A DNA stretch of 33,448 nt from the NCBI GenBank assembly GCA_945902135.1, contig CAMDMI010000005.1, positions 1-33,448 of the forward strand, in the 5' to 3' direction. Of this stretch, positions 3,781 through 9,164 are shown in pieces. The stretch comes from Spirosoma fluviale (GTDB lineage Bacteria; Bacteroidota; Bacteroidia; Cytophagales; Flexibacteraceae). A program made the translations under genes and the position numbers. The notes below the pieces were generated by a model. It saw only the letters and a program-made list of their open reading frames with translations, searched no databases and was not told where the DNA came from. Each line of letters opens with the position of its first letter. Position 1 is the stretch's first letter.

Positions 3781-3818
3781 AAAAAAAAATCACCTGAAAA
3801 ATTTTCATTCTCAGGTGA
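3781..3818 (-). terminator. Rho-independent terminator for the 47-residue protein gene
   Basis: ATCACCTGA (3788-3796) pairs perfectly with TCAGGTGAT (3810-3818). On the minus strand the 9-bp stem is followed by a run of eight T (complement of the A-run at 3781-3788). It lies about 80 nt past the stop of the small minus-strand gene at 3900-4043. The plus side has only AAAATTT, so minus-strand termination is favoured. Confidence 0.75.
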
Positions 3819-3899
3819 TAAAATTTAGAATTGTCCTACGGATGTCCGGAACGATTTGTAACCGGATTAAAAGTGGTCTGCCTTAAAAAGGCTATTTGA

Positions 3900-4043
3900 T
3901 TATGCGGAAAAGGACTTTTTCAGTTCCTCCACATCCACTTTTTTGATAACGGGAGTAAGGGTAAGTTGCTTAATGCGCTTTACGCGTGCATTTGCCTTTG
4001 CCTTGTTCCTTCTGTCTTTTCTTTTAAGTCTTGTTACTCCCAT
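3900..4043 (-). CDS. 47-residue basic protein, possible ribosome-associated protein (missed by the ORF track)
   Basis: Read by hand on the minus strand: ATG 4043-4041 to TAA 3902-3900. The protein starts MGVTRLKRKDRRNKAKANAR and ends LKKSFSA. Of 47 residues 16 are Lys/Arg and only 4 acidic, so it should bind RNA. It has its own promoter-like sequence (TTTG-N20-CATCTTTG, 4064-4095) and a strong terminator (3781-3818), which together argue for a real gene. From memory, very similar short proteins starting 'MG(V/I)TRLKRKDRRN' occur widely in Bacteroidota as hypotheticals. Association with the ribosome (for example the Bacteroidota-specific protein bL38) is only a guess. It lies in a gap that would otherwise be about 390 nt without a gene. 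Confidence 0.82.
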   Translation of the reverse strand: MGVTRLKRKDRRNKAKANARVKRIKQLTLTPVIKKVDVEELKKSFSA

Positions 4044-4063
4044 GGCCTATGAATTTCGGGGTG

Positions 4064-4095
4064 CAAAGATGCTTAACCAGATTATTTTATCCAAA
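4064..4095 (-). promoter_or_regulatory. Promoter of the 47-residue protein gene
   Basis: On the minus strand TTTG (4095-4092) is separated by 20 nt from CATCTTTG (4071-4064). The spacing fits the Bacteroidota -33/-7 arrangement. The -7 box has one mismatch (C for the first T of TAnnTTTG). The gap to the ATG is 20 nt. Confidence 0.5.
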
Positions 4096-7878: not shown

Positions 7879-8112
7879 ATGGAAAATTTGCTTGACCGAA
7901 TCAGCATTGATCCGGAAATCTGCCACGGAAAGCCCTGCATCCGAGAAATGCGTTATCCTGTGGAAATGCTACTGGACCTGCTTTCTTCTGGAATGTCTAC
8001 CGAAGAAATTCTGAGTGATTATCCATCCCTAAAGGTGGAGGACATTCAGGCCTGCCTGCTTTATGCATCCAGGCTGATGAAAGTGAAATCCATCCTGCGG
8101 CTTTCCGCATGA
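7879..8112 (+). CDS. DUF433 domain protein, probable antitoxin
   Basis: 77 residues matching DUF433 along its length: RISIDPEICHGKPCIREMRYPVE, then LLSSGMSTEEILSDYPSLKVEDI and a C-terminal helix. The C-terminal part of the family is a small winged-helix-like DNA-binding fold, and DUF433 proteins are often paired with DUF5615 PIN-like toxins. The stop overlaps the next gene's ATG as ATGA, the expected antitoxin-first arrangement. It probably binds the toxin and represses its own promoter; that is inferred from the family. Confidence 0.9.
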   Translation: MENLLDRISIDPEICHGKPCIREMRYPVEMLLDLLSSGMSTEEILSDYPSLKVEDIQACLLYASRLMKVKSILRLSA

Positions 8113-8465
8113 AGTTTCTTATCGATGCCCAATTGCCGCTGGCACTTGCTCATTTCATTCGCTGGAATGGATTAGAGTGTGTTCATGCTTTCGATCTGCC
8201 ACTTAAAGACCGTACCCCAGACAGCGAAATTCGGAAGATTTGTCTTCAGGAAGGGTTCATTCTAATAACGAAAGACCGAGATTTTCTCGACTCCCATTTG
8301 CTCCGCAGAATTCCACCTAAACTACTGATGATTTCCACTGGTAATATTTCCAACCGAATTCTGCTTGACATCTTAAAGCAAAACTGGCAAACCATTCAGG
8401 GCTTGTTTGAAGAAAACAACCTGCTTGAACTCGATAACGCTGAACTGATTGCTCATAATTCCTGA
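8109..8465 (+). CDS. DUF5615 PIN-like protein, probable toxin RNase
   Basis: 118 residues of the DUF5615/Mut7-C type PIN-like fold. Acidic residues expected at the active site are present: D6 in FLIDAQLP, D36 in DRTPDSEI, and the pair in ITKDRDF. The motif order (LIDAQLP, HAFDLPLKDRTPDSEI, ILITKDRDF) is the family's. It is coupled by ATGA to the DUF433 gene. The predicted activity is Mg-dependent RNA cleavage held in check by the DUF433 partner; toxicity itself cannot be read from the sequence. All key acidic residues look intact, so the pair is probably functional. Confidence 0.87.
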   Translation: MKFLIDAQLPLALAHFIRWNGLECVHAFDLPLKDRTPDSEIRKICLQEGFILITKDRDFLDSHLLRRIPPKLLMISTGNISNRILLDILKQNWQTIQGLFEENNLLELDNAELIAHNS

Positions 8466-8547: not shown

Positions 8548-8576
8548 TTTGGATTTCGAATGAAATTCTACCTTTG
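8548..8576 (+). promoter_or_regulatory. Promoter of the heptad-repeat protein gene
   Basis: TTTG (8548-8551), a 17-nt spacer, then TACCTTTG (8569-8576): a complete Bacteroidota -33/-7 pair. ATG 8595 is 18 nt downstream. The track's TTG start (8574) lies inside the -7 box and is rejected. Confidence 0.7.
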
Positions 8577-8594
8577 CATAAACTATTGAATATT

Positions 8595-9164
8595 ATGACA
8601 AGATTAGACCGTATTGAAAGAGGAATAGAAGCCTTACAAATCAGTCAGCTCAGGACCGATGCCCAGCTGGCTAAAACAGATGCTCAATTGGCCAAAACAG
8701 ATCAGCAGCTGGCTAAAACAGATGCTCAATTGGCCAAAACCGAACGCATTTTGAGCGGAATTGGCATTAACCTTGGACATGCTGCAGAGGAATTTTTTGC
8801 GAATAGTCTGCAAAAAAATAAGAAGCTGGGGAAGGTAAAGTTCGATGCAGTAGCCCTCCAACTGAAAGGACACAAAGGGAAAGTACAAGATGAATTTGAT
8901 GTTGTCATGTATAATGGCAATTCGGTTGGCCTCGTAGAAGTGAAACACAAAGTTCATCCTTCGGATGTAGACCAATTGATTACGCGAAAACTTCTGAACT
9001 TCAAGGCCTTGTTTCCAAAATATGCGGATGCTGCTTTTTATCTAGGCATTGCAGGAATGAGTTTTCCTCCGGAAGTTGTGGAAATGGCAGAAAATGAGGG
9101 GATAGCCGTACTGCGTCAGGTTGGCAATGTTCTTACAATGAATGAAAATCTGAGGAAGTTTTGA
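8595..9164 (+). CDS. Heptad-repeat coiled-coil protein with PD-(D/E)XK nuclease-like domain
   Basis: 189 residues. Residues 21-48 are four near-identical heptads, TDAQLAK (one is TDQQLAK), followed by a partial fifth (TERILSG), so a rod or oligomerising coiled coil is expected. The rest looks like a restriction-endonuclease-like core: a helix with Glu (AAEEFFANSL), then D102 in DEFDVVMYNG, a beta turn, E115-V-K117 in LVEVKHKV, and a later helix with DVDQL. This is the D-(x)n-E-x-K pattern of PD-(D/E)XK enzymes. Many genome-encoded proteins of this layout (DUF3782-like) are of unknown role. ATG 8595 is supported by the promoter at 8548-8576. It has its own promoter behind the toxin-antitoxin pair. 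Confidence 0.78.
   Translation: MTRLDRIERGIEALQISQLRTDAQLAKTDAQLAKTDQQLAKTDAQLAKTERILSGIGINLGHAAEEFFANSLQKNKKLGKVKFDAVALQLKGHKGKVQDEFDVVMYNGNSVGLVEVKHKVHPSDVDQLITRKLLNFKALFPKYADAAFYLGIAGMSFPPEVVEMAENEGIAVLRQVGNVLTMNENLRKF
8664..8740 (+). repeat. Two 35-nt identical direct repeats at 42-nt period, inside the coding region
   Basis: The 35-nt unit starting CAGCTGGCTAAAACAGATGC occurs at 8664-8698 and again at 8706-8740 with no mismatch. The 42-nt period equals two heptads. Neighbouring single heptads use different codons, so the duplicated unit is a heptad pair. This explains the coiled-coil repeat of the gene at 8595. Confidence 0.9.

Follow-up and report, generated by a model that had tools for sequence, protein, structure and literature searches.

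A gene of only 47 codons in the window (the whole stretch of 33,448 nucleotides analyzed here) is real and under strong purifying selection, and its product is probably an unnamed, lineage-specific ribosomal or tightly ribosome-associated protein that binds rRNA. The best clue to the function of this protein is its promoter, which has the sequence signature of the promoters of ribosomal protein operons.

The Gene and Its Product

The protein, MGVTRLKRKDRRNKAKANARVKRIKQLTLTPVIKKVDVEELKKSFSA, is the minus-strand translation of 4043→3900, followed by a stop codon. It contains 10 lysines and 6 arginines and has a computed pI of 11.5 and a charge of about +11.5. The preliminary description of this DNA had reported a 47-codon open reading frame with 16 Lys/Arg at 3900-4043 without giving the strand; it is there, on the minus strand, the plus-strand translation of 3900-4043 being unrelated to the 47-residue protein. 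Comparison of the window with a congener (L038) revealed 20 synonymous changes in about 30 sites versus 2 non-synonymous changes in about 105 sites, the reverse of the non-synonymous excess that the preliminary description had named as an argument against its interpretation. The features of the transcription unit are listed in Table 1.

Table 1. Features of the transcription unit of the 47-codon gene (window positions)
Feature	Positions	Strand	Remarks
Small basic protein ORF, 47 codons + stop	3900..4043	-	ATG start at 4043, reading 4043→3900
-33-like box TTTG, Bacteroidota-type promoter	4092..4095	-	From sequence; 20 bases before the -7 box
-7 box CATCTTTG, consensus TANNTTTG	4064..4071	-	From sequence; TANNTTTG upstream family-wide
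CACCCC right after the TTTG of the -7 box	4058..4063	-	C, then pyrimidine-rich start region; common to r-protein operon promoters
Intrinsic terminator, 12-pair stem, 7-nt loop, T8	3789..3819	-	About 80 nt past the stop codon

Promoter and Terminator

The private promoter and terminator previously claimed for so short a gene were both confirmed, and the gene is a single-gene unit. The promoter, TTTG-N20-CATCTTTG, lies at 4095-4064 of the minus strand and reads CATCTTTGCACCCC over 4071-4058 (minus strand). That it was not listed in a simple sigma-70 scan of the window is expected, as it is of the Bacteroidota type. Exact TANNTTTG was found within 110 nt upstream in 98 of 116 distinct upstream regions of the family (Markov shuffles 7.2 ± 2.5), and a terminator-like stem within 150 nt downstream in 138 of 155 downstream regions (shuffles 8-13). 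Both counts are far above those of the shuffles and therefore neither the promoter nor the strong terminator is due to chance.

In all 77 named relatives the TTTG of the -7 box is directly followed by C, after which come two less constrained bases and then pyrimidines. CTC, TCC, CCC or CCT is present within 7 nt after TTTG-C in the promoters of 56 of these 77 relatives as compared with 21 of 459 other TANNTTTG sites; for the strict form of the start region, C[ACG]NYCY, the numbers are 22/77 and 9/459. The strict form was tested first and the looser one was set after the data had been seen; both differences are significant.

A Promoter Signature of Ribosomal Protein Operons

The signature YANNTTTGCRNYCC has 45 sites in the genome, of which that of the 47-codon gene is one, versus 6 sites for a reversed-pattern control. 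The pattern was defined once the 47-codon gene, the bL33 promoter and a first scan were known, and the site count is therefore partly post hoc; neither its excess over that of the reversed pattern nor the identities of the genes are affected by this. The genes behind all 45 sites were read and 20 of them were verified with NCBIfam. At least 13 of the sites head ribosomal protein or infC operons (bL31, uL13, uS12, infC, bL21, bS21, uS8, bS6, bL33 with bL38, uL3, bS16, bS1 and bL28), an enrichment with a p of the order of 1e-10 when a background of 30-40 such units among 1200 is assumed. Other genes headed by the signature are those for CysRS, IleRS, AlaRS and LeuRS, an ABC-F ATPase, secE and an HU/IHF-like gene. 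The class is not exclusive to translation, the signature being found also before aconitase-, pyrophosphatase-, prs-, adk- and pyrG-like genes.

Written as TANNTTTGC-R-N-Y-C-C, with a pyrimidine-rich stretch close to where transcripts presumably start, the signature of these 45 sites of the genome (G000), among them 4058-4071 (minus strand) of the window, stands before many ribosomal protein operons and tRNA-synthetase genes. It has the look of a promoter class for a growth regulon in the lineage of the window, and it offers a cheap route to further growth-regulon genes in these genomes.

Structure Prediction and Database Searches

AlphaFold2, run with 28 sequences, predicted with high confidence a helix from residue 5 to 28 and in addition a short helix from 38 to 46 (mean pLDDT 83, pTM 0.43); the prediction contains no enzyme-like or folded domain. 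Foldseek found no match to the model in the PDB, as expected for two short helices. No model of Pfam (to E = 1) or NCBIfam, those of the named bacterial ribosomal protein families included, matched the 47-residue protein. When ribosomal protein models were compared with 20 relatives, one or two showed weak, insignificant matches (E 0.014-0.085), which probably come from A/K/E-rich tails. In the PDB, neither the protein nor any profile made for three C-terminal types yielded a significant chain, 7JIL included, and there was likewise no match in the entries of Bacteroidota ribosomes reached via bL38 (7jil and 9i5t groups), whose organisms may lack the gene. Nothing convincing was found in PHROGs (best an unnamed PHROG, E = 0.007, in 8 of 36 members), and a literature search on the motif VTRLKRK retrieved no paper.

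Comparison With bL38 and Other Small Basic Proteins

Small ribosomal proteins such as bS22 and bL37 are very short, basic and lineage-restricted, and were discovered late because of poor annotation. The 47-residue protein resembles them in all three properties; it differs in that it is not their detectable homolog, as indicated by the lack of a significant match in the PDB. Unannotated bS22 and bL38 have been described in Borrelia (PMC10618245).

A link of the 47-codon gene to bL38 had been suggested in the preliminary description, and size, charge and phylum are what speaks for it. But bL38 is DUF4295 (PF14128), which in the same genome is encoded by another gene located beside bL33 (G000:C48:5011-5151; E = 1.9e-27). 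The product of that gene matches chain 4 of PDB 7JIL, "50S ribosomal protein L38" (E = 4.4e-8), and also chain 15 of 9i5t, whereas the 47-residue protein and its profiles match neither. The 47-residue protein also has no match to the DUF4295 profile (Pfam to E = 1) and no sequence similarity to the DUF4295 protein, and its identity with bL38, which has practically no chance of being correct, was rejected. What the two share, besides being short, basic and encoded in Bacteroidota, is the promoter: the bL33-bL38 operon (L134) has the same signature, TACTTTTGCACTCC. The bL38 of F. johnsoniae and Borrelia is a strand-containing 50S protein near helix H95 (PMC10618245); its beta-strands contrast with the all-helical prediction for the 47-residue protein. 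A second structure group, 9i5t/9i5v, carries DUF4295 as well; its chain 15 (9i5t), which has no name beyond "DUF4295 domain-containing protein", is bL38 by its sequence.

The HU/IHF-like protein of the same genome is likewise basic and its gene has the same promoter class, but it is about 100 amino acids long and matches a known family, whereas the 47-residue protein matches no such family.

Distribution

A sample of the phylum contained full-length relatives in 14 further genomes belonging to the window's order. Within this order, which is the Cytophagales as judged from the named relatives (Hymenobacter, Rufibacter, Pontibacter, Siphonobacter, Algoriphagus, Cyclobacterium and others), a profile search detected the gene, nearly always in one copy, in 115 of the 118 genomes (113 of the 116 good genomes) and in 70 of 71 genera; for the remaining three, a broader profile gave nothing convincing either. 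A second order, probably the Sphingobacteriales, has it in single copy in 121 of 121 genomes and 11 of 11 genera, all from the one family of this order in the sample. As is usual for a ribosomal protein, the gene thus belongs to the single-copy core of its lineage. Of the seven reduced genomes (≤1.2 Mb) of family f74, which judging by size and order appear to resemble Amoebophilaceae, the six of 0.9-1.2 Mb have kept the gene; the seventh has 0.7 Mb. A mobile origin was rejected, a search of plasmids, phages and viral contigs having revealed no relative of the 47-residue protein.

Homologs occur in two orders and in scattered families and are therefore not confined to close relatives; such a confinement is what the preliminary description had said would tell against it. 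Its statement that the N-terminus looks conserved across Bacteroidota was correct in that conservation reaches far beyond close relatives, and too broad in that most other sampled genomes of the phylum gave no match: at the sensitivity reached, conservation is not phylum-wide and covers two orders almost fully plus scattered families of the same class. The list of core genes of the phylum has a gap here: the gene is nearly universal in two orders of Bacteroidota, and there is neither a Pfam or NCBIfam family nor a solved structure for it.

A Modular Family

The first approximately 28 residues, which are basic, are common to the form in the window and to the form in the second order, which ends with the C-terminus NIELGSRS...NNAVL. 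With a broader profile the N-terminal module was found in further families of the class, where the C-terminus joined to it is of a third type, ...VKSPNKEQTVIIED, and in one family of a fourth, ...GSYKNENAEVATEA. In members from these further families the module begins at the ATG and the open reading frames mostly have 43-85 residues. Their E-values per genome range from 4e-8 to 7e-3; as chance matches in the phylum sample reach about 3e-4 (e.g., G389 with internal stops), the weakest of these members rest also on start position and length. The members of the third type were chosen by their N-terminus and later profile-profile scores are therefore not independent.

Conversely, divergent Cytophagales from some families (L179-L187) have lost the MGVTRL start and kept the segment P-V-I-K-x-V-D-V-E-x-I-K-x-x-F. 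The two halves of the protein evolve separately. P31, K34, V36, D37, K42 and F45 are invariant or nearly so in the window's order. The low-complexity tails past residue 46 are almost absent in some members and exceed 100 residues in others.

Gene Neighborhood

In the window a DUF983 gene lies upstream of the 47-codon gene. Among 80 named loci, about 26 have hisS divergent from the gene, and 40 others carry nearby a gene that by eye looks like a threonine aldolase. In all 11 loci of family f5 (L016-L026) the gene is located a few tens of nucleotides downstream of tRNA-Cys(GCA) and on its strand, the two apparently forming a tRNA-mRNA dicistron. The reduced genomes of family f74 (L188, L189, L333, L336, L337 and L338) have it downstream of tRNA-Val(UAC), again on the same strand (6/6). 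The neighbors thus vary by lineage, and the gene unit is kept whatever its surroundings.

Function

We infer that the protein is present in ribosomes and highly expressed. The basic N-terminal helix (residues 5-28) would lie in a groove of rRNA as extensions of ribosomal proteins do, and the segment P-x-x-K-x-V-D-V-E-x-(I/L)-K-x-x-F with the short second helix would touch rRNA or a neighboring ribosomal protein, a C-terminal contact that in other families may have been exchanged for others. Expression would follow ribosome production via the promoter of ribosomal protein type, from a single-gene unit that ends at its own terminator. The evidence would fit binding of the predicted helix to DNA as well as to rRNA. 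Since many genomes of Bacteroidota do not have the gene, ribosomes in general can do without the protein.

The preliminary description had considered a ribosomal or a nucleoid protein. A housekeeping role of the ribosomal protein type is backed by the promoter, since this has the signature of ribosomal protein operons, and between the two the evidence leans to the ribosome. The pI and the single basic helix would fit also a small nucleoid-associated or general DNA/RNA-binding protein outside the ribosome, binding nucleic acid without great specificity, and the HU/IHF-like gene has the same promoter signature. We regard this as unlikely, however, because specific residues (P31, K34, V36, D37, K42 and F45) and not charge alone are conserved, and because the promoter class and, where they are kept, the neighbors are mainly translational. 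An accessory factor for ribosome assembly, hibernation or rRNA/tRNA processing, bound to the ribosome part-time, would explain the links to tRNA genes and hisS, the co-regulation with ribosome synthesis indicated by the promoter signature and the low-complexity tails of widely differing length in relatives. The growth-linked promoter class speaks against a hibernation role in stationary phase, and with no enzyme-like or folded domain predicted such a factor is quite improbable.

That the gene, being short and in a short transcription unit of its own, encodes a regulatory leader peptide or is a chance open reading frame is hardly conceivable in view of the purifying selection at the amino acid level, of the terminator of its own with no downstream gene in the unit, and of the conservation over two orders amid differing neighborhoods.

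A ribosomal or tightly ribosome-associated protein remains the preferred reading. It could be generalized, with somewhat less than an even chance of being right, to an as yet unnamed family of ribosomal proteins in the class Bacteroidia with a conserved basic N-terminal helix and exchanged, lineage-specific C-terminal contacts, which was missed because the Bacteroidota ribosomes found in the PDB are without a detectable homolog. The ribosome of Bacteroidota is odd already, with its sequestered anti-Shine-Dalgarno sequence and bL38; if the 47-residue protein is part of it, it has one more component.

Other Features of the Window

At 7879-8465 (plus strand) two overlapping small open reading frames look, by sequence alone, like a DUF433/DUF5615 (PIN-like) toxin-antitoxin pair. 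They are followed at 8574-9164 (plus strand) by an open reading frame with repeated TDAQLAKTDAQLAKTDQQLAKT segments and then a domain that by eye is nuclease-like.
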